From positions 1 through 23,833 of IMG/VR virus record IMGVR_UViG_3300040815_000828: a stretch of 23,833 nucleotides of DNA; one strand, given 5' to 3'. The position numbers and the translations under genes were made by a program. Source of the DNA: a virus. Below are positions 1 through 23,080 of the stretch, in pieces (the stretch's first letter is position 1; each line of letters starts with the position of its first letter). The notes below the pieces were generated by a model, which worked only from the letters and a program-made list of their open reading frames with translations, had not been told where the DNA came from and searched no databases.

Positions 1-2369
1 AACTTGATCGGATCGACGAAGAAAAGTCTGTCCATTACGAGGACGACGAAGATGAGGATGAAAAGGCAAAGCCTATTTCAGCCGCTGTAAAAGATGGTCT
101 AAAGCGTAAAGCTGATGAGCATAATGACAAGTATGGAGACAATCCAGCTAAGCGAGTAACATATGGGATGCTGTCTAAAGTGTTCCGTAGAGGAGTTGGA
201 GCGTATCACACTAACCCTCAATCTGTACGCCCTAATGTCAGGTCACCTGAACAATGGGCATATGCTAGAGTAAATTCGTTTCTATACGCTGTTCGTAACG
301 GTAAATACCGTTCAGGCAAACATGATACGGATTTACTTCCAAAGGGGCATCCTATGAGAGGCCCAAGGGAGGAAGGAAAGATGTACGAAGAACTTATGGG
401 TATTCTTTCTACTGAGGTAGAGAAAATAGAAGAAACTTCTGACTTTGTAAAGATTAAGGGAATGGCATCTACAACAGACGTTGATCGCTCTGGTGATATT
501 ATGCAGCTTTCCTGCTGGTCTCACGAAGGTCTGAAGTCTTATCAGAACAACCCAATTATTCTATTTAACCATAATTACGATAAGCCTATTGGTACGGCTA
601 CTAGCATTATGCCAGTGGACAATGGGCTAGAAATCGAAGCTAAGATTAGTAAGGCTGATCCGTATATCGCTAAACTGATCGACGACGGAATACTCTCTAC
701 CTTCTCTGTAGGGTTTAGAGTTAAAAGAGCAGACGTTAACAAGGAAACTGGTGGTCTGTATATCAAAGAAGCAGAACTATATGAAATTTCTGTAGTTTCT
801 GTGCCTGCTAATCAAGCGGCTAAGTTTGAAGTCGTTAAGTGTTTTAGTCCTGTAGAATTTGAGTCCTACAAAAAAGGACTAACTATGCCTACTGTTGGCA
901 ATAAGGTGGCAAACACCGCGAAAGGAAAGTTTGAAATGGATGAAAAAGAAATGAAAGATCTTATCGCTAAGCAAACTTCAGCAGCCGTAAAAATGGCCCT
1001 AGCTGAAAAAGAAGCTGCCGATAAGAAAGCCGCTGCTGAAGCGGCTGAAAAGCAAGCCGCTGAAGAAGCAGTACGTAACGCTGCTGTTGAAGCAGGCATG
1101 TCTGGTGCAGAGCGTCTTCTTGACGAAGTTAAGAAGTCTTTTGACGAAGGCCGTGCAGACACCATGAAAGAAATTGAAGAGCTTAAGAAAGCCCTTCACG
1201 ACCGTTCTGAAGAGGTTGCTGCTCTTCAGAAGTCTAAGCGTCAGTTCCTTGCACAAGGTTCTAAGAACTGGAAAGAGGCTCATGAGTCCGATATCCGTGA
1301 CGCTTATGTCCTAGGTGCTATTACCCAGAAGGGTTTTAACACTCAGTTCGGTAACGACGTTATCGAAAAAGTTAACACCGATTCCGGTGTTGAAATGCCA
1401 GCTGCTGCTAGCACGACTGTTTTTGAATCTATCGCTTCTACCGCTATTGAGCGCGACATTCAAAACCAGCTAGTACTTGCTCCTCTCTTCCGGGAGATTG
1501 CAATGTCTTCTGCTTCCATGATCATGCCGATCATGCCTGACGCAGGCTATGCAGAGTTCACCACTAACGCTGGTGCAACGCAAACTGCTGGCAAAGGTAA
1601 CATCGAAGCCCGTGGCGACGCCATTGGTGCTAACTCTGGTGTTGACCTAACTCAGAAAGTTCTTACCACACACAAGCTACTTTCTGTTACCTTCCTAGCT
1701 AACGACACTGAAGAGGATGCAATTCTTCCCCTTCTACCGCTACTCAACGAATCTCTAGTTCGTTCTCATGCCCGTGCTGTTGAGCACGCCATGATCGTTG
1801 GCGGAAGTGCCGATGCAACCAACACTGGTGGATTCAATGGCCTAATCAAGCGTGCCGTTGACATTCAGGCTCAGGGCGTTACCGGTGTTACCGCAACCAA
1901 CCAGAGCACGACTGCTTTTGCAACCGACGCTCTTACCACGGACAACCTACTTGGGCTTCGCAAGAACCTCGGCAAGTATGGCGTACGTCCTCAGGAAGTT
2001 GTATACCTTGTTAGCCAGCGTGCTTACTTCGAACTTCTCGAAGATGCAGAATTCGCTGATGCCAACATCGTTACGCCAACGCTTGCTACCAAGCTAGTTG
2101 GTGAAATCGGTACCGTATACGGCTCCCGCGTTATGCTCGTAGACGAGTATGCAGTTCCTGCTGTTAGCAAGTTCTACGCTGCTGCTGTTCACCCACGGAG
2201 CTTTGTTGTTCCGCGTCTGCGTGGTGCTACGCTGGAATCCCAGTATGTACCGCGTCTGCAGCATCGCGAACTTATCGCAACTCAGCGTCTTGGCTTTGAC
2301 CAGATCATTCCTGTTAGCGCCGCTAACCCGAATACCCCAATCTGTGCACGCCAGTACGCTGCTGCTTAA
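1..2369 (+). CDS. Fused prohead protease - scaffold - major capsid protein, 5' end outside window
   Basis: The frame is open from the left edge (first full codon at 3), so the true start lies upstream. Numbering from the in-frame ATG at 168: an acidic stretch then a small phage domain (to about residue 65, key words VFRRGVGAY and SGKHDTDLLPKGHP; I think DUF5824, unsure); an HK97-type prohead protease (about 90-225) with likely catalytic His135 in FNHNYDKPIG and Ser180 in STFSVGF; an alanine/lysine/glutamate-rich helical stretch (about 250-355) like a scaffold or delta domain; and an HK97-fold major capsid protein (about 365-733). The protease releases scaffold after prohead assembly; the capsid protein forms the shell. 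Fusion of all parts in one frame is unusual because capsid protein is needed in large excess; internal starts at 381 and 885 may solve this. The capsid part is richer in C-ending codons than the genes that follow, consistent with high expression. The upstream part could be a portal C-terminus, which the window cannot show. Confidence 0.9.
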   Translation, partial: LDRIDEEKSVHYEDDEDEDEKAKPISAAVKDGLKRKADEHNDKYGDNPAKRVTYGMLSKVFRRGVGAYHTNPQSVRPNVRSPEQWAYARVNSFLYAVRNGKYRSGKHDTDLLPKGHPMRGPREEGKMYEELMGILSTEVEKIEETSDFVKIKGMASTTDVDRSGDIMQLSCWSHEGLKSYQNNPIILFNHNYDKPIGTATSIMPVDNGLEIEAKISKADPYIAKLIDDGILSTFSVGFRVKRADVNKETGGLYIKEAELYEISVVSVPANQAAKFEVVKCFSPVEFESYKKGLTMPTVGNKVANTAKGKFEMDEKEMKDLIAKQTSAAVKMALAEKEAADKKAAAEAAEKQAAEEAVRNAAVEAGMSGAERLLDEVKKSFDEGRADTMKEIEELKKALHDRSEEVAALQKSKRQFLAQGSKNWKEAHESDIRDAYVLGAITQKGFNTQFGNDVIEKVNTDSGVEMPAAASTTVFESIASTAIERDIQNQLVLAPLFREIAMSSASMIMPIMPDAGYAEFTTNAGATQTAGKGNIEARGDAIGANSGVDLTQKVLTTHKLLSVTFLANDTEEDAILPLLPLLNESLVRSHARAVEHAMIVGGSADATNTGGFNGLIKRAVDIQAQGVTGVTATNQSTTAFATDALTTDNLLGLRKNLGKYGVRPQEVVYLVSQRAYFELLEDAEFADANIVTPTLATKLVGEIGTVYGSRVMLVDEYAVPAVSKFYAAAVHPRSFVVPRLRGATLESQYVPRLQHRELIATQRLGFDQIIPVSAANPNTPICARQYAAA
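365..383 (+). promoter_or_regulatory. Internal ribosome-binding site for a protease start at 381
   Basis: A long purine run containing AGGGAGG and GGAAGG lies directly ahead of an in-frame ATG at 381. A protein starting here (MYEELMGIL...) would begin close to the protease domain and lack the upstream domain. The sequence also has to encode protein (GPREEGK), so the match may be partly fortuitous. It is nonetheless as strong as the gene-start signals elsewhere in the window. Confidence 0.5.
873..887 (+). promoter_or_regulatory. Internal ribosome-binding site for a scaffold-capsid start at 885
   Basis: AAAGGA sits about seven bases before an in-frame ATG at 885 (MPTVGNK...), exactly at the end of the protease domain and before the scaffold-like helix. 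Initiation here would make scaffold plus capsid protein without protease and so supply extra capsid subunits. The signal and its position at a domain boundary are seen in the sequence; its use is inferred. Confidence 0.55.
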
Positions 2370-2379
2370 TTTACTTGGT

Positions 2380-2399
2380 GGGTGCCCTTCGGGGCACCC
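2380..2399 (+). terminator. UUCG-capped hairpin after the capsid gene
   Basis: A perfect 8-bp GC-rich stem (GGGTGCCC with GGGCACCC) closes a TTCG loop in the very stable C(UUCG)G form. It starts 11 bases after the capsid stop codon. No T-run follows, so it is unlikely to be an efficient intrinsic terminator. More likely it blocks 3' exonuclease decay or gives partial attenuation, keeping capsid mRNA above that of the neck genes. Confidence 0.7.
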
Positions 2400-2420
2400 C
2401 CTACCCCTTAAAGGATAGAC

Positions 2421-2993
2421 ATGGCTGACTTAGTTACAATTAACGCATATAAAGCATTTCGTGGTATCACCGGAACCACCGATGACACTAGACTTAATGT
2501 TATTGTTCCGTCTGTGTCTAACCTAGTCAAAAATTACTGTGGCCGTAGCTTTATTGACTATTATGCTTCCGACAAAGTACAAACCTTCAGTATTAAATGG
2601 CCGCAAAATGTAGTGTTTCTTAGCGAGATTCCTCTCGTCTCTATTACTAGTGTTAAAGAGTTTGAGTCCGAAACAGAAGGAGCAGCCTACATCACTCTTA
2701 CAGCAGATCAATATCGGTACGATACAAATCTAGATGCAGTTTATCGTATCGACGCAGGATATCGTAAAGATTTTCCACAAGGCATTAATAGTGTAGAAGT
2801 AACATATAAAGGTGGCTACAGCTCTCTCCCAGAAGATTTGAAGCTGGCCGTCATTGATCTTATTACTTACTATCTAAAAGAAGAACATAAACCCGAAAAG
2901 AATCACTCTAGCTTTACAATTCGCAATGTAAATGCAGAACCTGACTTTCCAGACCACATTAAACGTGTGCTAGACCTTTATAGAGATGGCTAA
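2421..2993 (+). CDS. Head-tail connector (gp6-like adaptor)
   Basis: A 190-residue protein of the phage gp6-like / phiE125 gp8-like connector group, which docks as a ring under the portal and prepares the head for tail attachment. The N-terminal half begins with a helix (residues about 5-40, with TTDDTRLNVIVPSVSNLVKNY then CGRSF), as in these proteins. A central beta region contains FLSEIPLVSITSV, and the C-terminal helix LKLAVIDLITYYLKEE is the typical end of the fold. The start is fixed by AAAGGA eight bases ahead of ATG. It follows the capsid gene as expected and overlaps the next gene by 8 bases, suggesting translational coupling. Family placement is from motif pattern and position. Confidence 0.8.
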   Translation: MADLVTINAYKAFRGITGTTDDTRLNVIVPSVSNLVKNYCGRSFIDYYASDKVQTFSIKWPQNVVFLSEIPLVSITSVKEFESETEGAAYITLTADQYRYDTNLDAVYRIDAGYRKDFPQGINSVEVTYKGGYSSLPEDLKLAVIDLITYYLKEEHKPEKNHSSFTIRNVNAEPDFPDHIKRVLDLYRDG

Positions 2994-4815
2994 CTCAAAT
3001 ATAAAGATATCAGGCTATGATGCTCGAATACAAGCAGTTATATTAAAAGAGCTTGAAAAAACAGTACAAAAGCTTACTGGAGCAGATACAGATGATGCTT
3101 TTATAGAATCTTTTATAGATCAAATAAGAAACGACGTTAAGGTAGGGACAGTAGGCACAAAAACAACACCCAACCTTATGCCGGTAGACTCAAAAGGTAA
3201 TCCTATTAGTTTTGATAAAGGATCTTTGTTAATTTCTCAACATGCCAACAATATAGAAAATCTTGTTCAGCAAATAAGTTTTATTTCAGACCCTAGTGGA
3301 GAAAAGTGGAAAAAAGTTTCTGGTACCTTAACTAGTATTTCTGGGGGTAAGGGTACTAAAGGTGTCCAGGCCGGCGGACCTTATACAGTAGAACGAAGAA
3401 AAGTAGATCCTACTAGAATTATTACTGCGTCTTCTGCATTATCTTTAGAAACTGAAGCAAACAAGGCTATACTAAAGAATGATGCAATAACATCTATTAA
3501 AGAAGGAATCTCAAACGGAAGTCTTCCAAGCTTAACATATACCCCAAAAGGCACACTTTATGCGGTAGATTACGAAATTACAGGGGTATCGGCAGGAGAG
3601 GATAATTCTAGATATATTGTTGTTTTGGTTATAGAAGCTAATCATTATTCAGTAGTAAATACTAGAGACCCCGCAAACTACACTGTTACAGTTAGACAAG
3701 GAGCAGCTTACGTTGCAGGTAGCTCTGGTGGTGGAATCGATATTGAGCATGGTATTGCTGATGCCTATCGACCTGCTAAAGAATATGTAGATAGGGTTGA
3801 AAATCTTGCAACTGCTGCATCTACATATTTAGATGAGCAAATTACGCGAAATCATAATAATCCAGAAATTGCAAAAAGTTTAAATAAAATAAAAAATTCT
3901 TTAGACGAATCTGTAAAAGAAATGCGTATACAGCTACAAGCATTGCAGCTTGCAACGCGTATGATTGGAGAAACTTTTCCTGATGCAACTTTTGACGAGT
4001 TAATTGCTTTCTATACAAATCTAGTAAGGCAAGGAAAAGATTTAGGATTTCATGTTGTATATCGAGACGCACAGAATAGTTTAACTTATAGAAATATTAA
4101 GGTAGATGCTAATATAGAGTTGCTTTTAAAGTCCGGTAAACTATTTTTCCCGGGTAGATCATATCTTAACCAGTTTAAAGGTAATTTAGAAAAGTACTTT
4201 AAAAATAGTCTTCCTAAGCTGCTTGTTTTTAAAAGATCTCCTTCTGCTATAAGTACTCATCTTATTAACGCATTAAGGGGTGTTCTTACTGGTAATGCAA
4301 AAAATAAGCACAAAAAATCTCCTTTGCTCCCTACAAAGTCATCCTATGCGTCGGGCAAAAACTTTGTTTCTTTTAATAAATCCAAGGGTATAAAAGGCGG
4401 TAAGCCAGCAAAAACACCTCCAAAAGTTTCAAAAGCGCCACCAAAAAGAGAAGCACCTGAATATCTTGGTGCACCACCTTCTACCCTTCAAAATACTGAT
4501 CTTTTAGCTCTTATAAACAAGGATATTAGGGATGCAGTTATTGATAACATGAAAAGGCCCGCACTTGAAAACAGAACTGGTAGGTTTGCATCTTCTGTTA
4601 AAATTTTGGGTATGACTCCTTATCAAAATAATTACATAGTAAGTTACGTCTATAGAAAGAATCCCTACTCAATATTTTCTACAACAGGTGGCAGAGCGCC
4701 TTGGAACACACCACCAAATAGAAACCCAGAAACTATTATACAAAAAGCTATAGTAGAACTAGCAAATAGGTATAATTTGACTGGTATGGGCTTCATAATG
4801 AAAGAAGGTATGTGA
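2986..4815 (+). CDS. Large neck / tail-completion-like virion protein
   Basis: A 609-residue protein between connector and tail terminator, the slot normally held by a tail-completion (HK97 gp10-like) protein of roughly 110-150 residues. Only the last ~105 residues look like that group: the words NMKRPALENRTGRFASSV and RKNPYSIFSTTGGRAPW are typical of phage neck/completion proteins. The rest is not recognised. It has an N-terminal mixed region, a probable coiled coil (about residues 260-330, rich in Glu, Lys and Leu) and a Lys/Pro-rich linker (about 466-500) before the C-terminal domain. It starts inside the connector gene with little Shine-Dalgarno signal and so probably depends on coupling. 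The structural role is well supported by position; the function of the ~500-residue extension is unknown. Confidence 0.6.
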   Translation: MANSNIKISGYDARIQAVILKELEKTVQKLTGADTDDAFIESFIDQIRNDVKVGTVGTKTTPNLMPVDSKGNPISFDKGSLLISQHANNIENLVQQISFISDPSGEKWKKVSGTLTSISGGKGTKGVQAGGPYTVERRKVDPTRIITASSALSLETEANKAILKNDAITSIKEGISNGSLPSLTYTPKGTLYAVDYEITGVSAGEDNSRYIVVLVIEANHYSVVNTRDPANYTVTVRQGAAYVAGSSGGGIDIEHGIADAYRPAKEYVDRVENLATAASTYLDEQITRNHNNPEIAKSLNKIKNSLDESVKEMRIQLQALQLATRMIGETFPDATFDELIAFYTNLVRQGKDLGFHVVYRDAQNSLTYRNIKVDANIELLLKSGKLFFPGRSYLNQFKGNLEKYFKNSLPKLLVFKRSPSAISTHLINALRGVLTGNAKNKHKKSPLLPTKSSYASGKNFVSFNKSKGIKGGKPAKTPPKVSKAPPKREAPEYLGAPPSTLQNTDLLALINKDIRDAVIDNMKRPALENRTGRFASSVKILGMTPYQNNYIVSYVYRKNPYSIFSTTGGRAPWNTPPNRNPETIIQKAIVELANRYNLTGMGFIMKEGM

Positions 4816-5264
4816 TGACAGAAAGAACCTATTCTACTAGGAGACAAGCTATAGCCAATGCTTTAAAAAATAAACTCTTAGAAATTAATGGAAGAGGTTC
4901 CTACGTTTCTAGAATTGCTGAGGCTTATACGCAGTTAAAATTTTATGATGATATTCATAATTTTCCGGCTATCTTTGTAATACCCGGAACTGAAACTCGA
5001 ACTTATCAAGCAGCAAACTATAGAGATAGATACTTAGATCTTAGAATTATGCTGTTTGTAAAAGAAGAAAATCCTTTAGAAGCCTGCGAAGGGCTTTTAG
5101 AAGATATTGAAACAGTAATTGAGACGAACGGTACCTTAGTCTATGAAGATAGAACAGGCACCACTCAAACTACTCACGATATAACGGTCCTTACTATCAG
5201 TACTGATGAAGGAACGTTAGACCCTATCTCTATTGGAGAGATAACTGTACGGGTCCATTACTAG
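4815..5264 (+). CDS. Tail terminator protein
   Basis: A 149-residue protein with the pattern of phage tail terminators (lambda gpU / SPP1 gp17 type), which cap the finished tail tube and provide the head-binding face. Visible features are an N-terminal helix (RRQAIANALKNKLLEI), a strand with FPAIFVIPGTETR, the alternating strand LDLRIMLFVKEENP followed by helix EACEGLLEDIETVIE, and a final strand with GEITVRVHY. I chose the ATG at 4815 because it overlaps the preceding stop as TGATG with GAAGG upstream; a GTG at 4812 is an in-frame alternative. Order connector, completion, terminator, tube fits siphovirus necks. Confidence 0.75.
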   Translation: MTERTYSTRRQAIANALKNKLLEINGRGSYVSRIAEAYTQLKFYDDIHNFPAIFVIPGTETRTYQAANYRDRYLDLRIMLFVKEENPLEACEGLLEDIETVIETNGTLVYEDRTGTTQTTHDITVLTISTDEGTLDPISIGEITVRVHY

Positions 5265-5290
5265 GAAACTAGTTAAAGGAGAAGTCTTAA

Positions 5291-6466
5291 ATGGCTATAT
5301 TTTTAAAACGCGATACTAAAGTGTATCTTGAGAAGTTCCTATCGGATGGTACTACTCCAGTAATCTGGGAAATCCCAGTTTTGGATGGTTTTTCGTTTTC
5401 TCAAGGTAACACGACTTCCGAGACAGTCCTTAATGAAATGGAAGATGCTTCTGGCAATTCGAGACGGGGGCGTCGTATGTTTAATGATGCACTAGCTCCT
5501 GCAGACTGGTCTTTTTCTACCTATATTCGACCATTTATTGCATCAGGAACAGGAACAGCAGATGACACGGCTAACCACCACGCTATTGAAGAAGCTCTTT
5601 GGGGCAACTTTGTTGGTACAGGGGCACTAACCGAAGCCTTGGGAGCCTATGATTATAGTCAAGCTAACTTTACGGCAGATACCTCTGACCTAAATATTAG
5701 CTTTGCTGGCTCTGGTAAAAGTACTCTTGGTACGTTTAATCTGTACTTTGTTATGGGTGCGTCTAATGCTGCTAGCAGCAACTATACCGCAAGTTCAACA
5801 CTAGAAATTTATAAAATCTCTAGCTGTGTTGTAAACGAAGCGACTATTAATTTTGATGTAGATGGCATTGCTATGATTGACTGGTCAGGAAATGGTAGCC
5901 TTCTAACAACAGAACCAGGCCTAAATGCTTCGGCTGCTATTGTAGAGGATATTACTAATACGGATAACTTTATTCGTAATAAACTTACTGCTCTTGCTAT
6001 GACAGCAGCAGACACCTCAACATTCCCAGGAGCTTCTAGTAACGGAGTTTATAATCTAACTCTAACAGGTGGCTCAATCACGCTTAGCAACAATATTACG
6101 TTTCTAACACCTGAAACGCTGGGAATTGTTAATCAGCCTATTGGTCATATTACAGGTAATAAGTCTATCAGTGGTAACTTTACTTGCTATGTAAGTAGCG
6201 GTACTGCTGGAGATTCTGGCTCTCTATTTGATGCTATGACCTCTACGGCAGCTCGTAGTGTTATTACAAATAGCTTTAATCTTACATTCAAGGTTGGCGG
6301 AACAACGGGCACACCTAGGTTTGAACTTAATCTGCCTACAGCACACCTTGAGATTCCAACAATTCAAAGTGATGATGTTATTGGTACCGATATTTCTTTC
6401 CACGGTCTACCATCGACAATTACAAGCAATGATGAAGCTACTCTGACTTATGTTGGAGCTGCGTAA
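5291..6466 (+). CDS. Major tail (tube) protein
   Basis: A 391-residue subunit of the tail tube, which stacks as rings around the tape measure. A strong AAAGGAGAAG signal precedes the ATG, consistent with high expression. The first ~215 residues show a tube-type beta pattern with an exposed loop (NEMEDASGNSRRGRRMFND) and strands such as DWSFSTYIRPF and ATINFDVDGIAMIDWSG. After a linker, residues about 255-391 repeat this general layout (KSISGNFTCYV, then NSFNLTFKVGG, then a closing strand with TDISFHGLPS). Two tube-like halves would resemble T5 pb6, where trimers mimic hexameric rings. Tube identity is firm from position and pattern; the duplication is inferred by eye. An intrinsic terminator follows. 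Confidence 0.8.
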   Translation: MAIFLKRDTKVYLEKFLSDGTTPVIWEIPVLDGFSFSQGNTTSETVLNEMEDASGNSRRGRRMFNDALAPADWSFSTYIRPFIASGTGTADDTANHHAIEEALWGNFVGTGALTEALGAYDYSQANFTADTSDLNISFAGSGKSTLGTFNLYFVMGASNAASSNYTASSTLEIYKISSCVVNEATINFDVDGIAMIDWSGNGSLLTTEPGLNASAAIVEDITNTDNFIRNKLTALAMTAADTSTFPGASSNGVYNLTLTGGSITLSNNITFLTPETLGIVNQPIGHITGNKSISGNFTCYVSSGTAGDSGSLFDAMTSTAARSVITNSFNLTFKVGGTTGTPRFELNLPTAHLEIPTIQSDDVIGTDISFHGLPSTITSNDEATLTYVGAA

Positions 6467-6483
6467 GGTTAAAAAAATTAATC

Positions 6484-6512
6484 TTGACAACAAAATTGTC
6501 ATAAGATAAACT
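6484..6512 (+). promoter_or_regulatory. Sigma70-like promoter ahead of the tail chaperone genes
   Basis: A perfect TTGACA (6484-6489) is followed after 17 bases by TAAACT (6507-6512, four of six consensus). An A-rich tract before the -35 box resembles an UP element. The predicted start, about 6518-6520, falls inside the left arm of the next terminator stem. It would drive the chaperone, tape measure and tip genes. Sequence match only. Confidence 0.5.
6485..6501. repeat. Dyad overlapping the -35 box (operator candidate)
   Basis: TGACAA and TTGTCA form a perfect 6-bp inverted repeat with a 5-base AT-rich spacer, overlapping the -35 box. It could be a binding site for a dimeric regulator or a weak RNA hairpin in read-through transcripts. 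No regulator gene is in the window. Confidence 0.3.
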
Positions 6513-6513
6513 T

Positions 6514-6547
6514 ATAGCATCTGGGTAATCTCAGATGCTATTTTTTT
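6514..6547 (+). terminator. Intrinsic terminator after the tail tube gene
   Basis: A perfect 10-bp stem (ATAGCATCTG, 6514-6523, with CAGATGCTAT, 6532-6541) closes an 8-base loop and runs into seven Ts (6541-6547). It has the standard form of a factor-independent terminator. It lies 47 bases after the tube stop codon and 16 bases before the chaperone start codon, so it would end most capsid/tube transcripts. Confidence 0.88.
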
Positions 6548-6563
6548 AACTAAGGAGATATTA

Positions 6564-6974
6564 ATGAGTAAACTATCGTCAATGTTGACAAACAAACTTG
6601 AAGCCTGGGTAGAAATGGAAGGCTTTGATGGTTTTGAGGTAAAAATTGCGTATGTATCGCGAGAAGAACTAAATAAAATTAGAAACTCAGTAACACGAGT
6701 TTCTTGGAGCCCAAAAACACGACAAAAAGAAGAAACAATTGATAACGAGCTGTTTATCAGCGAGTTTGTCAAAGCAGGTGTTCTAGACTGGAAAGGTCTT
6801 ACGCTACGCCACGCCGCTCGACTACTACCAATCGTAGTTCCCGAAGATGCCGACCTAGATGAGCTAATTGATTTTAGCCCAGAAGAAGCTGTGGCTCTTT
6901 CTAATAATTCCACTGTATTTGATTCGTGGCTAAATGATGTGATTTTTGATCTAGCCAACTTTCAAGGAAAATGA
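6564..6974 (+). CDS. Tail assembly chaperone (G-like)
   Basis: A 136-residue acidic protein in the position of lambda gpG, between tube and tape measure. Such chaperones bind the tape measure protein and recruit tube subunits, and are absent from the mature virion. The sequence is helical with an early beta segment (GFEVKIAYVSREELNKIR), a central GVLDWKGLTLRHAARLLP and an acidic region DADLDELIDFSPEEAVAL typical of this group. The start has a near-ideal TAAGGAG eight bases ahead of ATG. It is the first gene after the terminator/promoter region. Its last seven codons overlap the frame of the next segment, into which a minority of ribosomes should shift to make the longer GT form. Confidence 0.8.
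   Translation: MSKLSSMLTNKLEAWVEMEGFDGFEVKIAYVSREELNKIRNSVTRVSWSPKTRQKEETIDNELFISEFVKAGVLDWKGLTLRHAARLLPIVVPEDADLDELIDFSPEEAVALSNNSTVFDSWLNDVIFDLANFQGK
6955..6974 (+). promoter_or_regulatory. Programmed frameshift window (+1 or -2 class)
   Basis: The downstream frame opens at 6955, just after a TAG, and the G frame stops at TGA 6972-6974, so any shift must occur in these 20 bases. The change of frame is +1 (equivalent to -2). The best site is TTT C at 6960-6963: Phe-tRNA on UUU can re-pair with UUC one base later. An alternative is the AAA codon stalled before the UGA stop. No -1 heptamer of the lambda type would give the correct frame. Confidence 0.6.
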
Positions 6975-7350
6975 ACAAGCTCAGTGTATAGAACTCCTTG
7001 AAAAATATTTAAAAGATATAGATAGTCCGATAAAAAGGGAAACATATCTTAATATGTGTGAGCAAATGGGTAAAGAGCCTGATCCGGCAGAACTACCATT
7101 AGCTTATGAAGACCTTACGTATGATGCACAATTAGCATATAGTATTTATACTAAATTAGGTAGCCGAATTTACGGAGACGTCGGTTTTACTGGAAAAGAT
7201 TACACAAACCTCCCCATTCTCATCGAGGTACATAACATAATTGATCCTGAATATTTATTAATATTACTTAGTGTGCTAGATAGCCACTATATTAATAAAA
7301 GTCAGGCACAAATTAAAAAGATGCACGATGATATAAAAAAGAAAAAGTAA
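6964..7350 (+). CDS. Tail chaperone T segment, made as a G-T frameshift fusion
   Basis: This frame encodes the T part of the long chaperone GT, which would total 261 residues after the shift. T contacts the tape measure or tube subunits in lambda. The frame has coding character from the overlap on (QAQCIELLEKYLKDID, then PIKRETYLNM), well before its first ATG at 7054, and that ATG has no nearby Shine-Dalgarno sequence. There is no ATG, GTG or TTG between 6955 and 7054. Independent translation is therefore unlikely, and a simple call from 7054 would lose about 30 real residues. The segment ends in a lysine-rich helix and overlaps the tape measure start as TAATG. Confidence 0.75.
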   Translation, partial: KENEQAQCIELLEKYLKDIDSPIKRETYLNMCEQMGKEPDPAELPLAYEDLTYDAQLAYSIYTKLGSRIYGDVGFTGKDYTNLPILIEVHNIIDPEYLLILLSVLDSHYINKSQAQIKKMHDDIKKKK

Positions 7351-10300
7351 TGAAAATTCCTTTTAAGATATCTATGTTGTTCGAAGACCGCGGCCTAGCA
7401 AGGGCAGAAAAGCGGTCTGAAAGATATGCTAAAAACTTTGAAAGAGCTGAAGAAGCACAACGACGTGCTCAACGTACTCTTGAAAAAGGTGGTTTTTATA
7501 CAGAATCCGGTGGAGGCGGTGGAGGAGGCGGCGGCGGCGGAGCCAGCCCGCTAAACACCTATAAGACCCAAAGATCAACTATCGGTACCCGAGGTGCAGA
7601 TGCTAGAAACTTTAGTGGTCTAGCTGGTGCAGCTGGAGCAGGACAAGGTATTGTTGCTGCATATGCTACTCTCGCATCAACTCTATTTGCTGTTACTGCA
7701 GGTTTTCAGGCTCTATCTCAAGCTGCCCGAGTAGAACAGCTAACAGCAGGACTAGAAATTTTGGGTGCTAGAGGAGGAACGTCTCTTAAAGCTACCGCAC
7801 AAGGACTTAGAGAAGTTACAGATAATGCAATTAGTACGGCAGAAGCTATGAAAGCAGTGGCTTCTGCATCTGCTGCTGGTCTAGGTCAAGATGAGATAAA
7901 CAGGCTGGGTAGGGTAGCCAGAGGTGCTTCTCTTGCACTAGGTCGTAATCTTGGCGAGTCAATGGATCGCTTGACTCGTGGTGCGATTAAACTAGAACCG
8001 GAACTTTTGGATGAACTTGGTATCATGGTTCGTCTTGATGAAGCTGTAAAGCAGTACGCTTTAGAAAATAATAAAGTAGCCTCTTCTCTTTCGCTAACGG
8101 AGAGACGGCAAGCGTTTCTAAATGCGGTTTTAGAGGAGGGTGAGCGTAAGTTCGGAGAAATTGCAGATAATGCTGGAACAAATCCCTATGATAGACTTCA
8201 AGCAGCTGTTCAAGATTTTGGAACAAGTTTGCTTACTCTAGTTAACGGCCCCCTAAAGTTTTTTGTAAATATAGGTGCAGCAATTCCTGCTTTAATCTTG
8301 TTGCCTCTCATGAATACTATTAAAACTGCATCTTCTAAAATTTTTCCAACTTTTAGCTCGCAGATGGAAAATATGACGGGCAAAATAGAATCTCAACAGT
8401 TAGCTGTAAATAGTCTAAGAGGTGCTTTAGAAGATCAACAAGGTACAATGGAGTATGGAATATCTCTCCGCAAAAAGTTTATAGAAGATATGGATATTAT
8501 TGAAGCTTTAGATCAAGCTGGAATAGACGCAGATAAAATCGATCCTGCTAAGGCAACAACACAAACTCAACGAGATCAGATGCGTAAAGCTCTTTTAGAT
8601 GAAATTGCTTTTAGAGAAAAAGACATTGTTAATGTTTCTGCAGATAAAGTAGCCGCAGAAGAAGCTGTAATTAGAAAACTAAGGTCGGCCTTGGATACTT
8701 ATCATGACACCGAAGATATGTTAGGGGCTATTAATAGTAGGCTAATTACAAGAGTAGCAATTGAGAGCCGGTCAGCAATTTTGCTAGAAACAAACAAGCG
8801 AACTATACAAGATTACTATGCTACTGTTGAGGGTGGAGGAAGTGTTTTTAAAGCTCTTGGAACTGCTGTATATAGATTTTTTGGTAATGCAAGTACACAA
8901 ACTGCTATTCTAAAGCAAGAGCTTGTAGAAACAAATGGTGCTGCATTAACACTAGCGCAGCGTTTTAAGGTGCTTGCTTTTAGAGTTGATGGATATTTGA
9001 GTGCGGCTTGGAACTCTACTAAGCTAGTACTTAATGGGTTTTTAAGGCTTATTCCGATAATTGGAAATGTAACTATAGTTTTTGGGCTTATTACAGGTGC
9101 CCTAAACTTTATAAAAAGTGAGGCTCAAAAAACTTTTGAAGCTACTAGAAAAGAACTAGGTGAACTAGCAAAAAGCTCAGAAAAGGTGGGCATAGAGATA
9201 CAAAAAGCATTTGATGCTAGAAACTATACCCAAGGTTTTGAAGCAGCCATAAAAAATATGTCAGAAATTGTGGACAAGCTAGGCGATCTAGAGGCTGCTT
9301 CACAAAGAGCAACTAGCTATTTTGCATCACCTGCTTTTGTCGGAGGAACTTGGGCAGCAAAAACAATAAATAATTTAAAAAGAATAGGAGCAGAAGTTCT
9401 TGGGATAGGAACTGTTCCTACAGGACAGGCTTTAGCGGGTGTTAGTAATCAAGAAGCCGCTGCTTATAGCCAGCTTGTAGCAAGAGCATATGCCGTTTCA
9501 GCAGAGAAAGGCAGAGACTTAGAAATCGCTCTTAGCAATGCTAGTTTGAGGGGAGAAGACCTGTCTCAAGTAGCTAAAGATAACTTAGAAGAACTAACTG
9601 CTCTTGAGGGGGCGTGGAATAGTATTGGCGAAGCTGCAAAAAAAGCTGGAGAAGGTGTAAAGAAGTTTTATGGCCCTAGCTTTTTACAAACCACATATTC
9701 AGATGTTGCTAACAATCTGTCAGAAATTGATAAACAATTTAAAAACATTAGAGAGGCAGGATTAGATGATGGATCTATTTTTTCTGCCGTAAATGAATTG
9801 TTAAAAGGTGGAATGGAACTTGCTGGAGAGCTAGATAATTTAGCAGGTGGTGATACTTTCTTTAGAGAAACCTTTGATCAGATTTCTACTTTAGAAGCAA
9901 GAATTAATCAGCTAAGAAGAGACGGTGTAGATAAAAATAGAACTGCTATTGATAACTTAGTAAGACAAGCAGATGCAGCAAGACTAAATCTAGCTAGGGC
10001 ATATCAAGAAGGAAATTTTGAGCTTCAATCAGCTATAAAAAATACTGCACAATTTATTAAAGAAAAAACACTGGAAACCTTAAAAGCCGATCAAGAAGTT
10101 CTTAAGGTGCAAAAACAAATAGCGGATGTCGCGGAGAAAAGAATAAAAGTAGAAACTCAAAGAGAAAATTTGCGTAGATTTGGAACACTAAAAAGCCCTA
10201 GTAGAGGTGCTGCTTTACAGGCAGAAAGAGATGCTGCAGTTAGAAAGGCAGAAATAGAAAATGCAGAATCGCAATTAAGACTCGAAATTATTGATGCAGA

Positions 10301-12209
10301 ATATGATCTTGCTAGGTATAAATTACAAACTCAATTAGATATTATGAATCTAAGTGAGGTAAATCAAGCTGTAATTCCTCAAGCACAGCTTAACGCTGCC
10401 AATGTAGGAAATATTACAACAGCTTTTGATATGGACATTATGAACCAGTTACAAGATTTACGAACTAGACGACAAGATCTCATTCTCCGGGGGATACAGA
10501 CCCCAGAACTAGATCAACAAATTAAAGATTTACAACAAATATATGATGAAGGTGGAATAATCGGAGCTACTCTTTTACAACAACTAAAAGACAGCGATGT
10601 AGTGCTTAATACATTTGAAGAATTTAAAGAATATACTGGCCTAATTAGTAGCGAGGTTCAAGTAACAGCAAATAATTTGTATACTCAGTATCAGGCAAGT
10701 AGACTGATAGTAGGGGCTATGGATGCACAAGAACAAAAAACAGAAGCACTAAAAAGACTTACTCAAGATCAACTAGATCTGAGATTAGAAGAAGCAGGGC
10801 TTGCTCAAGATAAAATAGATGCTCTTGTTAGTGACTACGAAAACACAAAAAGAGCGGTAGCACTAGAAACGGAAAGAATTAAAAATGCAAAAGCTCTTAT
10901 TGAGAATGCTAAAAGAGAATATGATATTCGAAACAGCATTTTAGAAATAGTTAATAAAACTAATGAGGTATCTACTCAAAGAGGCGTAAGCGCTAGAGGT
11001 TTATTTACTAGACAAACGGCAAATGCACAAGTAGAGTATCTTAATACAATAGCAAATATTAACATAAAAAGAGCAGAATTACAAAATAGCTTAAGAACAG
11101 AGCAACAGCAGCTAACTATATTACAGACTGAAAGAGATGGGTATCTAGCACAGCAAGAAGCAGGAACACTAGAAAACATAGCTCTTCTTACAGAATCAAC
11201 TGAAAATTATAATATTCAGGAGCAAAAAGTTAACGGTTTAAACAGCGCTATTAATAGACTAGGAACCGAAAGTTCTCTTGCTTACGATGTACTAATAGCT
11301 AAGCAAAGACTGTATACTGCAGAGTTAGAAGCTGCAAGCCTGTCCAGCGTTATTTCTAGGGCACAAGAGGAAGCAGGAGCAGGATTAAAACTAGCAAGCG
11401 AAACTTTTGGTGTTAGATTTGCAGGGGCCTCTGAAGAATTTATGGCTCTATTAAACGACTTTTTGGCTCGTAATCCTGATATGAAAGTAGCAGATGTTCT
11501 TGCAGATGAAAATACAATAAATACCCTACGCAGATCTTCCCTAGAGTTAAAAGTATTAAATACACAAGCACAGGGCCTAAATAGTGTCGCAGATGCGGCA
11601 GCTAATAGTTTTGCAAACGCCTTCTCACAGATAATCCTAGGGACTATGAATGGTACCGAAGCCTTTAAAATGATGGCTATGTCAATTTTGCAAGAAATTA
11701 ATACAATGATTGTGCGAATGTTGATTTTGCAGTCCCTTATGCCTTTCTTTAAGGGAGGATCTGGAATCCAAGGTACCGATCTAGCAATGGACCCAAACTC
11801 TGTTAGTCTAATGGGACCTACTACAGTAATAAATCAAGGTGCGTTTAATCCTGCACCCATTAGTGTTCCAGGCTTGGCTATGGGCGGAATTATGAAGTAT
11901 GCTTCTGGTGGCGTTATGCCTGCAAATAGCATTGCAGGAACTGTTACCAGTCCAACATATCTTGTAGGAGAAGGTAAGTATAACGAAGCTGTAGTTCCTT
12001 TGCCTAATGGTAAACATATCCCAGTACAAATGCACGGAAGTTCCGGCGAAACAAATGTTGTTGTAAATGTAAATGTTTCGGATACCGGAACAACAAGTAC
12101 CCAAGAGGGAATGGACCCAGCAAAGCTAGGCCAGGCTATTTCTACCGCAGTCCAACGAGAACTCATGGCGCAGAAATCTCCCGGCGGCCTATTAAGTAAG
12201 TACGGATAA
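7350..12209 (+). CDS. Tape measure protein
   Basis: A 1619-residue protein, the longest gene here, directly after the chaperones as in siphoviruses. It spans the tail lumen, sets tail length and helps DNA cross the envelope. A charged N-terminus is followed by an 11-glycine run (residues 54-64), a Gly/Ala-rich hydrophobic segment (about 90-125), two more hydrophobic segments (about 304-324 and 563-588) that could cross a membrane, and long Glu/Lys/Gln-rich helical stretches to about 1390. The C-terminus has PFFKGGSG, YASGGVMP and YLVGEGKYNEAVVPLPNG, a common ending in tape measure proteins, then a beta tail. At about 0.15 nm per residue the length suggests a tail near 240 nm (inference). The start overlaps the previous stop by one base with no clear Shine-Dalgarno, so coupled translation is likely. 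Confidence 0.92.
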   Translation: MKIPFKISMLFEDRGLARAEKRSERYAKNFERAEEAQRRAQRTLEKGGFYTESGGGGGGGGGGGASPLNTYKTQRSTIGTRGADARNFSGLAGAAGAGQGIVAAYATLASTLFAVTAGFQALSQAARVEQLTAGLEILGARGGTSLKATAQGLREVTDNAISTAEAMKAVASASAAGLGQDEINRLGRVARGASLALGRNLGESMDRLTRGAIKLEPELLDELGIMVRLDEAVKQYALENNKVASSLSLTERRQAFLNAVLEEGERKFGEIADNAGTNPYDRLQAAVQDFGTSLLTLVNGPLKFFVNIGAAIPALILLPLMNTIKTASSKIFPTFSSQMENMTGKIESQQLAVNSLRGALEDQQGTMEYGISLRKKFIEDMDIIEALDQAGIDADKIDPAKATTQTQRDQMRKALLDEIAFREKDIVNVSADKVAAEEAVIRKLRSALDTYHDTEDMLGAINSRLITRVAIESRSAILLETNKRTIQDYYATVEGGGSVFKALGTAVYRFFGNASTQTAILKQELVETNGAALTLAQRFKVLAFRVDGYLSAAWNSTKLVLNGFLRLIPIIGNVTIVFGLITGALNFIKSEAQKTFEATRKELGELAKSSEKVGIEIQKAFDARNYTQGFEAAIKNMSEIVDKLGDLEAASQRATSYFASPAFVGGTWAAKTINNLKRIGAEVLGIGTVPTGQALAGVSNQEAAAYSQLVARAYAVSAEKGRDLEIALSNASLRGEDLSQVAKDNLEELTALEGAWNSIGEAAKKAGEGVKKFYGPSFLQTTYSDVANNLSEIDKQFKNIREAGLDDGSIFSAVNELLKGGMELAGELDNLAGGDTFFRETFDQISTLEARINQLRRDGVDKNRTAIDNLVRQADAARLNLARAYQEGNFELQSAIKNTAQFIKEKTLETLKADQEVLKVQKQIADVAEKRIKVETQRENLRRFGTLKSPSRGAALQAERDAAVRKAEIENAESQLRLEIIDAEYDLARYKLQTQLDIMNLSEVNQAVIPQAQLNAANVGNITTAFDMDIMNQLQDLRTRRQDLILRGIQTPELDQQIKDLQQIYDEGGIIGATLLQQLKDSDVVLNTFEEFKEYTGLISSEVQVTANNLYTQYQASRLIVGAMDAQEQKTEALKRLTQDQLDLRLEEAGLAQDKIDALVSDYENTKRAVALETERIKNAKALIENAKREYDIRNSILEIVNKTNEVSTQRGVSARGLFTRQTANAQVEYLNTIANINIKRAELQNSLRTEQQQLTILQTERDGYLAQQEAGTLENIALLTESTENYNIQEQKVNGLNSAINRLGTESSLAYDVLIAKQRLYTAELEAASLSSVISRAQEEAGAGLKLASETFGVRFAGASEEFMALLNDFLARNPDMKVADVLADENTINTLRRSSLELKVLNTQAQGLNSVADAAANSFANAFSQIILGTMNGTEAFKMMAMSILQEINTMIVRMLILQSLMPFFKGGSGIQGTDLAMDPNSVSLMGPTTVINQGAFNPAPISVPGLAMGGIMKYASGGVMPANSIAGTVTSPTYLVGEGKYNEAVVPLPNGKHIPVQMHGSSGETNVVVNVNVSDTGTTSTQEGMDPAKLGQAISTAVQRELMAQKSPGGLLSKYG

Positions 12210-12210
12210 T

Positions 12211-12549
12211 ATGGCATCATATGTAACTATAAGTTCTGTAGAATACCCTTTTGATAGTGGTATATCTATACAAAATACCCCCGCTAAGCGTGTCACAAAC
12301 TTTGGTGATGGCTACGCATTGCACATACCTGTAGGTCCCGTAGTTCGTACCTATAATGCAGCTTTTAGTAATAGAACTACTTCTGAGATAGAAACTATCG
12401 AAAGTTTTTTAGTAGCTCAAAAAGGGGAGGCATTTGATATTATTGTGCAGGGAGAAACAATTCATGTAGTAGCGCTAGAGTTTAGAAAAGCGTACCAGAA
12501 TGGAGAAATATATTCTTTATCTGCTACTTTTAAGGAGTATTTCAATTGA
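12211..12549 (+). CDS. Minor tail protein, lambda gpM-like
   Basis: A 112-residue tail-tip protein. The signature of the phage minor tail M group is clear: an N-terminal strand, then PAKRVTNFGDGYALHIPVG, a strand with YNAAFSNRTTSEIETIESFLVAQKG split over residues 50-72, and a final beta strand with SLSATFKEYF. These small proteins form part of the ring where the tube meets the tip (distal-tail role). The gene starts one base after the tape measure stop with only a weak ribosome site, implying coupling, and its stop overlaps the TTG start of the next gene. Confidence 0.8.
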   Translation: MASYVTISSVEYPFDSGISIQNTPAKRVTNFGDGYALHIPVGPVVRTYNAAFSNRTTSEIETIESFLVAQKGEAFDIIVQGETIHVVALEFRKAYQNGEIYSLSATFKEYFN

Positions 12550-14063
12550 GTATTTATTTTAATATTCCTGCTGGAACATACAATGGAAGAGCCGTATCTG
12601 CTACAACTGTTAAGGTAGACCGGGGATTTTCCGAAACTAATAGTATACGAGTTAGAGAAAGTACATTAGAAGACTTTCCTTTTCAACACATAAAAGTACA
12701 TGATATTAATGAACGAAATACTGATATTAAATTAACACTAAATATAAAAACAGAAAGTGAGTATCTTGATATTTTAAAGTATTTTGAAAGTTTAAAAGGT
12801 TGTAAAGCTATAACACTTAGATATCCTGATCCAATAGAGTACTATGGTAACAATTATAATACTCTTTGGTTTAACTTTAATGACACAACTTCTATGCGTG
12901 TAGGCAGGGATGGATCAGGAGGTGCTCCAGGAGTTGGAGATAGCGTAGGTCTTGTAGTTGATACATCAGTATGTGCTGGAGCCCCTCTTGAAGAATATAT
13001 GAATACTCAGCCTGAGTTGATTACGAATGGGACTTTTGATACGGATACGGATTGGACTAAGGGGACTAATGCGTCTATCAGCGGGGGTGTAGCTACACTT
13101 AACGTGGTTGGTGGCGCGTTTACATACATAGCCCAGCCTATCAGCTTCACTGAGAACGCTTGGTATGTGGTTACTCTGACCCTCAATGGCGATGCTGGCA
13201 ACGATGTCAGAATAATAGACGACGGCGGCAATGCTGGAGGGTTAACATCTCCGGCGTATGATGTCACACTTACAGGATCCAACCAGCAAGTCGAATATAT
13301 ATTTCAGGCTAACGCCAACAGCGACGAAATTCAGATTGCTCGAAGCGGCACGGGTGACTGGTCTTTTAGTGTTGACAACATCTCCGTCAAAAAGCTTCCC
13401 GGTTACTGCTTTGTCTCCGATGATGACTTAAACCGCCCTACACTACAATACGACGGTAGCAGATACTACTTAGACTTTGATATCACGGACAATCTTCAAG
13501 GTTCAGGAGGTGACTTGGATACGCTTGGATATCGGGCTGCAAGAACAACCTTTGCAAAAAATATGGTACAAGAAGGTAGCTTTCATATGTGGTTTGCTAC
13601 GGATATTGCAGGTCTGTATGTAGTAGCAAGTAATGATGGAAGCTTAAATACAACCTTATCTCAATTTGCTGGAGGTAATATAGGCTATGATACTAGTGAT
13701 GACTTTGGACTTTATGTAGATGGTGTAGAAACTACATTTGCAGATAGAAACGCAGCTCATGATGCCGTTAGGGGGCTAAATAAAACAGTCTGGGCTGATG
13801 GTGTAGATACAGCTACCTATGCTGCTTGGGCTAACTATAATTGGACAATCGGCTCGGAGTATAACTCTACGTGGGCAATGGATGGTCGGGTCTACAACTG
13901 GTTTTACACTTCAACTCGGGTTGAAGAAAATAAGATAGCGGAAATATCTGACGTTATGTCAAATACCGTACTCAGTAAAAAGATAATTATTACTCAGTGG
14001 TCTACTAGTATTCAAAAAGGTGGCTACGGTAATTTAAATGTGTCAGGGGAGCTTGTGTACTAA
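12546..14063 (+). CDS. Tail-tip protein with lectin-like domains (composite)
   Basis: A 505-residue protein in the tip block between M and L, not part of the minimal lambda set. The start is TTG at 12546 (AAGGAG eight bases upstream, overlapping the previous stop); no other start fits as well. Residues 1-115 look like a virion-anchoring domain (VHDINERNTDIKLTL, KGCKAITLRYPDP). From about 120 there is a concanavalin/LamG-like phage module (DSVGLVVDTS ... RPTLQYDGSRYYLDFDITD ... GLYVDG), split by residues 156-286, which look like a galactose-binding-fold carbohydrate-binding module (PELITNGTFDTDTDW, ISGGVATL, FSVDNISVKKLPG). The insert is far GC-richer than its surroundings. Both modules suggest binding to surface glycans. 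Domain types are from pattern recognition and the ligand is unknown. Confidence 0.65.
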   Translation: MSIYFNIPAGTYNGRAVSATTVKVDRGFSETNSIRVRESTLEDFPFQHIKVHDINERNTDIKLTLNIKTESEYLDILKYFESLKGCKAITLRYPDPIEYYGNNYNTLWFNFNDTTSMRVGRDGSGGAPGVGDSVGLVVDTSVCAGAPLEEYMNTQPELITNGTFDTDTDWTKGTNASISGGVATLNVVGGAFTYIAQPISFTENAWYVVTLTLNGDAGNDVRIIDDGGNAGGLTSPAYDVTLTGSNQQVEYIFQANANSDEIQIARSGTGDWSFSVDNISVKKLPGYCFVSDDDLNRPTLQYDGSRYYLDFDITDNLQGSGGDLDTLGYRAARTTFAKNMVQEGSFHMWFATDIAGLYVVASNDGSLNTTLSQFAGGNIGYDTSDDFGLYVDGVETTFADRNAAHDAVRGLNKTVWADGVDTATYAAWANYNWTIGSEYNSTWAMDGRVYNWFYTSTRVEENKIAEISDVMSNTVLSKKIIITQWSTSIQKGGYGNLNVSGELVY

Positions 14064-15259
14064 TGATATTAGACGTAAACAAACAAAGGTTAGAAGATGA
14101 TTATGTAGAACTATTTGAAATAACTACATCTAGTACTACTTTATACTATACTACGTATCATCAGTCCCTTATACTACAAGATAGAGATTCTCCTTTTACT
14201 AGAAGAACCTATACTTCTTTGCCTATTGATTTTTCTGGATTTGAACACAGATCAGAGGGAGCATATGCACGTCCTCAGGTTAGCTTTTCAAATGTACTAA
14301 ATACCCTTCCCGGTGTGCTGGGCACCGCAGATGAACTGCTAGGCAAAAAGATTACTAGACGGCGTACACTATATAAGTATCTTCCTAGTGATCAAACTAC
14401 TCCGGGAGGAACAGAAAGTTCTGCTCCAACAGAACTACCTCAACAAGTGTTTTACTTTGATAGAGTTACCGAAGAAAACCCAAATATTATCTCTTATGAG
14501 TTAACAACGGGATTTGACTTGGAAGGCGTTTCTGTTCCAAATAGATTTATTATTGCTAATAGCTGTAGTTGGTTATATCAAGGAAATGCCCAAGACTTAG
14601 ATTTAAATACAACAACTCCTCTTGGTGCCTGCACATGGAGAACTGATAATATTTTAGATGCGGATACAGATTTTGTAATTATGTACGATACTGCAAATAG
14701 AGTTCTGCTAAAAGAATCTGAAAGCGGTATACATAACAATGCTGCGGGTGCTATTGATATTGATACTCTAACACCACCTACAAGTGCTGTAGAAGATAAG
14801 CTATACTCTAGAGATAAGACAGTTACTTATGCTGATACACTAGCTACTACAACCATTCAAGAATACTTTCAAGCACTAAATACAGAGCTAGTAACTACAT
14901 TTAATATTGCTAACTTTAGACGTGTTAGGATGTATACAGCTTGGAACTCCAATACTATTTATAGGATATATAAAGAAGGCAGGGTATTTAACCCTTGCGT
15001 AATTTATAATAACAGAGTTTTTGTTGCGGTAAATAATAGTCAAGGTAAAGTACCTAATGCAGCAAATAGCGCTTACTGGGAACGTATTGATCTTTGTGGC
15101 AAAAAGCTTTCTAGCTGTGCAGCTAGATACAGTGTACGTAAATATCAATATACAGGAGAAGGGAGTAATATAGTTATTATTCCTTATGCAACACAACAAA
15201 CAGATTCAAAGGTATTACCATATGGAGGATTCCCCGCCGCTAAACGATATAATAGATAA
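14063..15259 (+). CDS. Minor tail protein, lambda gpL-like, with inserted binding module
   Basis: A 398-residue tip protein. The N-terminal part has the L-type beta pattern (FEHRSEGAYARPQVSFSN, then YFDRV and ISYELTTGFDLEGVSVPNRF). Four cysteines fit the metal-cluster set known from lambda gpL: Cys168 (NSCSWLYQG), Cys190 (GACTWR), Cys345 and Cys352 (DLCGKKLSSCAARY), followed by the family ending LPYGGFPAAKRY. By analogy they would hold an iron-sulfur cluster. Between the second and third cysteines lies an insert of about 150 residues. Its end (W294 to W339, with NSNTIYRIYKEG and SAYWERI) resembles a CBM5/12-type carbohydrate-binding module. A fifth cysteine (312) lies inside it. The start overlaps the previous stop by one base (TAATG). 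It overlaps the following K-like gene by 38 bases. Confidence 0.8.
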   Translation: MILDVNKQRLEDDYVELFEITTSSTTLYYTTYHQSLILQDRDSPFTRRTYTSLPIDFSGFEHRSEGAYARPQVSFSNVLNTLPGVLGTADELLGKKITRRRTLYKYLPSDQTTPGGTESSAPTELPQQVFYFDRVTEENPNIISYELTTGFDLEGVSVPNRFIIANSCSWLYQGNAQDLDLNTTTPLGACTWRTDNILDADTDFVIMYDTANRVLLKESESGIHNNAAGAIDIDTLTPPTSAVEDKLYSRDKTVTYADTLATTTIQEYFQALNTELVTTFNIANFRRVRMYTAWNSNTIYRIYKEGRVFNPCVIYNNRVFVAVNNSQGKVPNAANSAYWERIDLCGKKLSSCAARYSVRKYQYTGEGSNIVIIPYATQQTDSKVLPYGGFPAAKRYNR

Positions 15260-15953
15260 GGCTAAACTTTGGCTTAGATACGCACCAAGAGATAAAGAGC
15301 CTTGCGCCGTAGCATATTTACAAAAAGGAAAGCTACACTTAAAGGTGTTAGAAAATACTTCTACGGACCCCAAAAATTATTTTGTAGTAGATAAAGATTA
15401 TGTTAGGCTAAGTCTTACTGGAGAAATACTATATATTATTCACGCTCATCCTGATAACTGTATCCCTAGTGAATACGATATTGCAGCTTGTAACAGCATC
15501 AATATACCCTATATCGTGTTCAACCATAAAACACTAGAATACCAAACTATTTACCCACTAAATTATAAAACTCTTTCTGGTATTCCGTATGAGTTTGGAG
15601 TAGCAGATTGTTTTGAAACAGCAAGAAGCTGGTATCTAATGCACGGAGTACCCATACCCCCTAGAAAAGATTGGATTGACGATTGGTGGGAAGAAGGGTA
15701 TGATTATATTAAAGATTTAGATAAAAGTTGGCCTTTTGTAGAGAGTAAAGGATTAACATATGGTAGCTTAATTACTTTTAATATTCAACACGAAAAAGAG
15801 AATCATCTAGGTATTTATCTTGGACAAGATTGCTTTTTTCATCACGCAGTAGATAGGCTATCCTGCAAAGAAAATTTGTATCCTTTTTGGGGTAAGTTTA
15901 TAAAGAAGGTTTATAACTATGAAGGAAGTATTACTAAACGGTTTTTTGGGTGA
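15222..15953 (+). CDS. Tail-tip peptidase, lambda gpK-like (JAB/MPN + NlpC/P60)
   Basis: A 243-residue protein with two domains as in lambda gpK. The N-terminal JAB/MPN metalloprotease-like domain has Glu26 (KEPCA) and the motif His74-x-His76-Pro with Ser83 and Asp86 (HAHPDNCIPSEYD), matching the JAMM zinc site. The C-terminal NlpC/P60 domain has Cys130 (GVADCFETARSWY) and His195 (NHLGIYLG), the expected catalytic pair. The NlpC/P60 part probably cuts peptidoglycan during entry; the JAB part may act in tip processing. I chose the ATG at 15222 (AAAGG upstream, MEDSPPLND) rather than the in-frame ATG at 15186, since the latter adds 12 unconvincing residues and overlaps more of the L gene. The I-like gene overlaps its end by 35 bases. 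Confidence 0.85.
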   Translation: MEDSPPLNDIIDKAKLWLRYAPRDKEPCAVAYLQKGKLHLKVLENTSTDPKNYFVVDKDYVRLSLTGEILYIIHAHPDNCIPSEYDIAACNSINIPYIVFNHKTLEYQTIYPLNYKTLSGIPYEFGVADCFETARSWYLMHGVPIPPRKDWIDDWWEEGYDYIKDLDKSWPFVESKGLTYGSLITFNIQHEKENHLGIYLGQDCFFHHAVDRLSCKENLYPFWGKFIKKVYNYEGSITKRFFG

Positions 15954-16647: not shown

Positions 16648-16650
16648 AAT

Positions 16651-23045: not shown

Positions 23046-23080
23046 AAAAACCCCGGAACCGAAGTTCCGGGGTTCTTTTT
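23046..23080. terminator. Bidirectional intrinsic terminator between converging genes
   Basis: A perfect 11-bp stem (AACCCCGGAAC, 23049-23059, with GTTCCGGGGTT, 23064-23074) is flanked by five As on the left and five Ts on the right, so both strands give a hairpin plus U-run. On the minus strand the loop reads TTCG, the very stable form, while on the plus strand it reads CGAA. It ends the structural operon and nrdB at once, and its right T-run overlaps the nrdB stop codon. Confidence 0.92.

Follow-up and report, generated by a model that had tools for sequence, protein, structure and literature searches.

The stretch of DNA analysed here (the window) comprises 23,833 bases and is the record of an uncultured virus. 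In it, head and neck genes lie upstream of, and on the same strand as, a junction between two tail genes. The gene before the junction encodes a T5 pb6-like major tail protein (5291-6466, plus strand; PHROG 3575, E = 1.4e-52) and belongs to the upstream transcription unit; the gene after it encodes a tail assembly chaperone (6564-6974, plus strand; PHROG 313, E = 3.6e-12) and is the first of the downstream tail unit. In the window, 97 nt separate the stop codon of the major tail protein gene from the chaperone start (6564), the ATG of which is preceded on the plus strand by a ribosome binding site (AAGGAG, 6552-6557). Two chaperone frames (6564-7350) overlap, the second being open from about 6952 and the first ending at 6974, and a programmed frameshift is likely in this gene pair; such frameshifts are common in tail chaperones. 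Downstream of the junction, tail genes follow without a further clear terminator until positions 23050-23074, where a terminator with T-tracts on both strands separates the tail genes from a convergent open frame on the minus strand (23079-23801), presumably akin to a ribonucleotide reductase small subunit, as judged by reading its sequence. At the other end of the window, a single frame of 733 aa (168-2369) matches the families of both the head maturation protease and the major head protein, which thus appear to be fused, in contrast to T5, in which protease and capsid are not fused.

The relatives of the window are IMG/VR contigs, and nucleotide BLAST against named phages returned nothing. 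Distant relatives in bacterial genome collections are few and come from metagenome-assembled genomes, of which several belong to marine Gammaproteobacteria; these records suggest that the phage group is marine.

The intergenic gap contains a compact element (6484-6547, plus strand) that consists of TTGACA-N17-TAAACT, one nucleotide, a 12-bp hairpin and a U-tract. The -35 box (TTGACA, 6484-6489) and the -10 box (TAAACT, 6507-6512) have the form and spacing of a sigma70-type promoter (TTGACA/TATAAT-like hexamers, 16-18 nt apart) and match 10 of 12 consensus positions, the -10 box alone matching 4 of 6; an A/T tract just 5' of the -35 box (6471-6483) may function as an UP element. The hairpin (6514-6541) has arms at 6514-6525 and 6530-6541, a UAAU loop and 12 base pairs including one G-U, and it runs directly into seven T (6541-6547), at which the upstream mRNA is expected to have its 3' end. 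A stable stem followed immediately by a U-tract, with covariation in relatives, is the form of an intrinsic terminator. The predicted transcription start, 7 nt past the -10 box, is A6519, which is 5 bp into the left arm of the hairpin. The original prediction had placed the start of a TTGACA-N17-TAAACT promoter at about 6518-6520, within the left arm of a strong terminator, and the hexamers, the stem and the T-tract are all present; the left arm, given as 6514-6523, forms part of a stem of 12 bp rather than 10.

An RNA initiated at A6519 would lack the base of the stem, as had been predicted, and would retain seven pairs rather than about five. The complete stem of the window folds with -16.9 kcal/mol; the RNA from 6519 would fold with -7.5 kcal/mol into a hairpin that ends 4 nt short of the U-tract. 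A start at 6517 would leave nine pairs (-14.0 kcal/mol) adjoining the U-tract, and a start at 6521 five pairs (-4.9 kcal/mol), so that the conclusion that the new RNA escapes termination hinges on which of these sites is used. A stem that is several nucleotides away from its U-tract is a poor intrinsic terminator. An RNA starting at 6519 and stopped at the U-tract would be about 29 nt long, and the reading of the junction as a small-RNA gene was rejected on account of this length; the junction matched no family in Rfam.

Within the window, the junction terminator has the highest score among plus-strand terminators in positions 1-20000, and the junction folds far more stably than shuffled sequences (z = -6.1). 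Sites that match the promoter consensus at 10 of 12 positions number only four on both strands of the same interval, the junction promoter being one of them, and promoter-like sites overall show no excess (43 observed versus 49.5 +/- 7.4 in shuffles). Because promoter-like sites are no commoner than in shuffles, coincidence in the window by itself is just moderately unlikely. The matter is decided by comparison: this geometry recurs with largely unrelated stems in every member of the clade described below, which confirms that the promoter-terminator element is real, and its conservation across relatives led to the rejection of chance alone.

Protein scans and alignment scans yielded about 185 loci, and 79 tail-protein loci were classed according to where the predicted start, taken as 7 nt beyond the -10 box, lies with respect to the stem. 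Four architectures were distinguished: A, with the start inside the left arm (15 of 79); B, with the promoter first and, 3-14 nt past the start, a complete stem (28 of 79); C, with the terminator first and the promoter after it (30 of 79); and D, with a terminator and no recognised promoter (5 of 79). The remaining locus (L176) was left unclassed, its junction being cut off by the end of the contig. In a maximum-likelihood tree of the 79 loci, architecture A, to which the window belongs, forms one clade with 100% SH-aLRT support, and architecture D also forms one clade.

All relatives that group with the window in clade A share one layout: an A/T tract, TTGACA or TTGACT, 17 nt, TANNNT, a hairpin that starts at or beside the end of the -10 box, and a T-tract. 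TTGAC and TANNNT are thus present in every member, and at each of the 15 tail-protein loci of the clade the predicted start lies within the left arm, 5-11 nt in, as it does at additional loci that were found via the chaperone. The base at +7 past the -10 box is A in 12 of 15 clade-A sequences and G in 2, a preference that fits initiation there and to which base composition and shared ancestry also contribute. The stem sequences are largely unrelated across lineages (for example L004, L005, L009, L019, L110, L112 and L114); compensatory changes affect each of positions 2-12 beyond the -10 box but leave promoter and geometry intact. The distance from the -10 box to the stem, measured after leaving aside outer A-T pairs that extend into the -10 box or the T-tract, stays between -2 and +1 nt (sd 1.2), whereas the distance from the tail-gene stop to the -35 box ranges from 9 to 23 nt; the distance from the stem to the chaperone start is also loose, its spread being inflated by start codons called too early in L007 and L004. 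The predicted promoter and the terminator are, on this comparison, conserved jointly and coupled geometrically. Part of the constancy may be inheritance, since the architecture arose once.

The complete stems of clade A comprise 12-17 bp (-15 to -21 kcal/mol), and the remnant hairpins predicted for RNA from +7 range from -0.4 to -11.8 kcal/mol, the weakest being those of L019 (-0.4 kcal/mol, nearly absent), L009 (-2.5) and L112 (-2.8). The remnant ends 3-7 nt before the U-tract in all clade-A sequences except the near-copies L046 and L116, in which it refolds 1 nt from the tract, weakly (-3.7 kcal/mol). The arrangement is specific to the junction: clade-A DNA (522 kb) contains 61 strong terminators, of which 17 have a promoter that starts within the stem, and these fused elements occur essentially once per genome, between the tail-protein and chaperone genes, with one weak exception (L197). 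Among controls, such terminators amounted to 0 of 35 in relatives of architectures B, C and D, one weak case among 66 in three T5-like phage genomes, and 0 of 7 in 50 kb of E. coli.

Architectures B and C interleave on the tree, with at least five forced changes around what is apparently the same promoter. A/T tracts akin to that of the window, AAAAATTTAAC or AAAAATAATTC, are found in A, B and C, and the similarity of this tract together with TTGAC suggests that the promoter is common to all three and that it is the terminator that has changed position relative to it. At architecture B loci (L126, L136, L150, L151, L165 and others) the promoter lies about 20-60 nt after the tail-protein stop, its spacer contains a recurring GGTC...GAC(T) (GGTT...AAC in L150), and the complete terminator is preceded by a first transcribed stretch that is similar between loci (ATG-AATAGAAAAAG); these junctions could be attenuators or antitermination units. 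In two relatives, G022 (L231-L232) and G023 (L234), many TTGACA-N17-TATAAT promoters are located in one genome part, and the structural-gene promoter often has TATACT, possibly indicating separate promoter classes.

A dyad over the -35 box of the window (TGACAA-CAAAA-TTGTCA, 6485-6501, plus strand) had been put forward as a possible further point of regulation. Similar dyads are present in L002, L003, L038 and the L046/L115/L116 group, but close relatives, L007 among them, have none at the -35 box. Inverted repeats of at least 5 bp were counted in 10 of 15 clade-A sequences, versus 2.8 expected from shuffled spacers, the sequences being related to each other and the repeats differing in place. 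A conserved operator was rejected on these grounds and on the lack of any such repeat in L007; some members may have a regulator site, which would not be a feature of the unit.

The most probable reading, to which we assign a probability of about two in three, is that the junction is a fused terminator-promoter at which the capsid and tail-tube unit ends and transcription begins anew for the tail-assembly unit. From the elements, their coupling and their conservation, all visible in the sequences, we infer the following course of events. RNA polymerase arriving from the tail-tube gene would transcribe the full hairpin of 12-17 bp and stop at the U-tract. Polymerase recruited to the embedded sigma70-type promoter would start 5-11 nt inside the left arm and make an RNA without the base of the stem; as its remnant hairpin would be weaker and usually too distant from the U-tract, termination would fail and transcription would continue through the genes for the chaperone, the tape measure and the tail tip. 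The purpose may be to express the tail-assembly genes at a lower level and independently, beside a very abundant tube protein. A more specific proposal, to which we incline slightly, is that the junction sorts its own transcripts, the start position inside the hairpin deciding which RNAs terminate, with selection acting on the geometry while the sequence is replaced.

Insulation followed by restart is the best reading because promoter and terminator are conserved together in a fixed geometry and because the remnant mostly lies 3-7 nt off the U-tract. The original prediction holds to this extent, the coupling being found in all 15 clade sequences, but truncation of the stem is not the sole arrangement in these phages, as the 28 of 79 loci with architecture B demonstrate. 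It is chiefly this architecture that calls for caution about escape by truncation: its full stem past the predicted start is evidently tolerated in sister phages, so that truncation would be sufficient and not necessary. Published reporters at the nlpD1 terminator upstream of penA in Burkholderia agree in principle with escape from a close-by promoter, since a promoter centred 134 bp upstream was fully blocked and the identical promoter centred 24 bp upstream was reduced slightly (PMC6045580). At lambda tR2 in vitro, 38 nt from the start, 33-39% of transcripts still terminated (PMC6978380), which implies that architecture B junctions may be leaky attenuators.

The complete stem 3-14 nt past the start in architecture B has the layout of the ampC/frd, lambda Q and AlpA targets, and it raises the alternative that RNA from the embedded promoter also mostly ends at the hairpin and is let through when tail genes are needed, by a Q- or AlpA-like factor or by growth-dependent antitermination as at ampC. 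This is unlikely for clade A, in which the new RNA would be without the stem base, the stopped product would measure only about 29 nt, the remnant mostly ends 3-7 nt short of the U-tract, being nearly absent in L019, and the junctions contain no conserved binding element that we could find, the dyad at the -35 box being patchy. An equally improbable account explains the overlap by capture rather than escape: host RNA polymerase would stay on the DNA after position 6547, slide back about 28 bp and restart, so that tail-assembly expression follows tube expression. Single-molecule work has shown that polymerase remains on the DNA once it has stopped at an intrinsic terminator and starts again at promoters close by, including upstream ones (PMC6978380, PMC11347151), and promoter and terminator adjoin in architectures A, B and C alike; but the reach of this process is hundreds of base pairs, which makes an overlap of 1-2 nt unneeded and leaves the near-fixed spacing from the -10 box to the stem unexplained, and an in vivo demonstration is lacking according to the same two papers. 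Such recycling may also work jointly with the fused terminator-promoter.

The element fits into a gap of about 80-110 nt across clade A, which would favour a simpler account in which lack of space forces a promoter and a leaky terminator to overlap and the start position in the stem is irrelevant to termination. The terminator-only relatives point the same way, their downstream genes managing with read-through, and the existence of five relatives with a terminator and no recognised promoter suggests that terminators at this junction may be leaky. Saving of space is nevertheless less likely still, for the flank lengths vary freely and the distance from the -10 box to the stem does not, and the stems have been replaced in several lineages with the register unchanged. 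That the remnant, a 7-bp hairpin at the extreme 5' end in the window, serves to protect the new mRNA is very improbable because this residual hairpin is not conserved, as its energies in L019, L009 and L112 show.

Among known systems the fused terminator-promoter most resembles frd/ampC of E. coli, in which the promoter of the next unit likewise lies at the end of the upstream operon and one intrinsic terminator is shared. There the whole stem is included in the ampC leader and ampC RNA is attenuated, whereas in clade A, also with its promoter upstream of the terminator of the previous unit, the predicted start is inside the left arm and the new leader would not contain a complete stem; this is the defining point in which clade A differs. 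At nlpD1/penA the terminator of the upstream gene similarly blocks a distant promoter and hardly an adjoining one, but that placement is mutational or engineered in a bacterium and the start was not mapped (PMC6045580), whereas the clade-A layout is fixed in phages. Targets of Q and AlpA have a promoter followed closely by an intrinsic terminator, as in architecture B, and depend on an antiterminator protein and a binding element, together with a sigma-dependent pause and a complete terminator downstream (PMC9371919); the likeness to the junction is one of layout, and a complete terminator downstream of the predicted start is found in architecture B but not in clade A. Post-termination recycling (PMC6978380) shares the feature of a terminator-adjoining promoter that the same polymerase can reuse, but it concerns reach along the DNA, and clade A concerns a start site inside the stem.

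Junctions between gene blocks of T5-like phages also combine a compact terminator with a host-type promoter, but the promoter usually comes after the terminator, with the start 65-90 nt past the stem base. The named T5-like phages that were examined have almost no gap after the tail-tube gene, hence no terminator-promoter unit there. At three other sites in T5-like phages (L250 at 9975, minus strand; L262 at 11158, plus strand; L256 at 16280, minus strand) the right arm of a terminator apparently contains the -35 box of a promoter, with the T-tract as its spacer (for example TTGCAAAGATTCTCTTTTTTCGTTATAAT), which would be another kind of promoter-terminator overlap. The sharing of a terminator with the promoter of the next unit is already known from frd/ampC; the start-in-stem layout may be new, a search of the open-licence literature having found no phage account of a start site inside a terminator stem, which is weak evidence of novelty.

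If the fused terminator-promoter operates as proposed, a phage module of about 60 bp would end one operon and start the next without a regulator, and it would be a ready part for synthetic circuits. The relatives provide a natural series, with starts before, inside and after the hairpin, in which the minimum distance between promoter and terminator is directly testable. For the phages themselves, such a module would be useful in setting the ratio of an abundant tube protein to scarce tail-assembly proteins.
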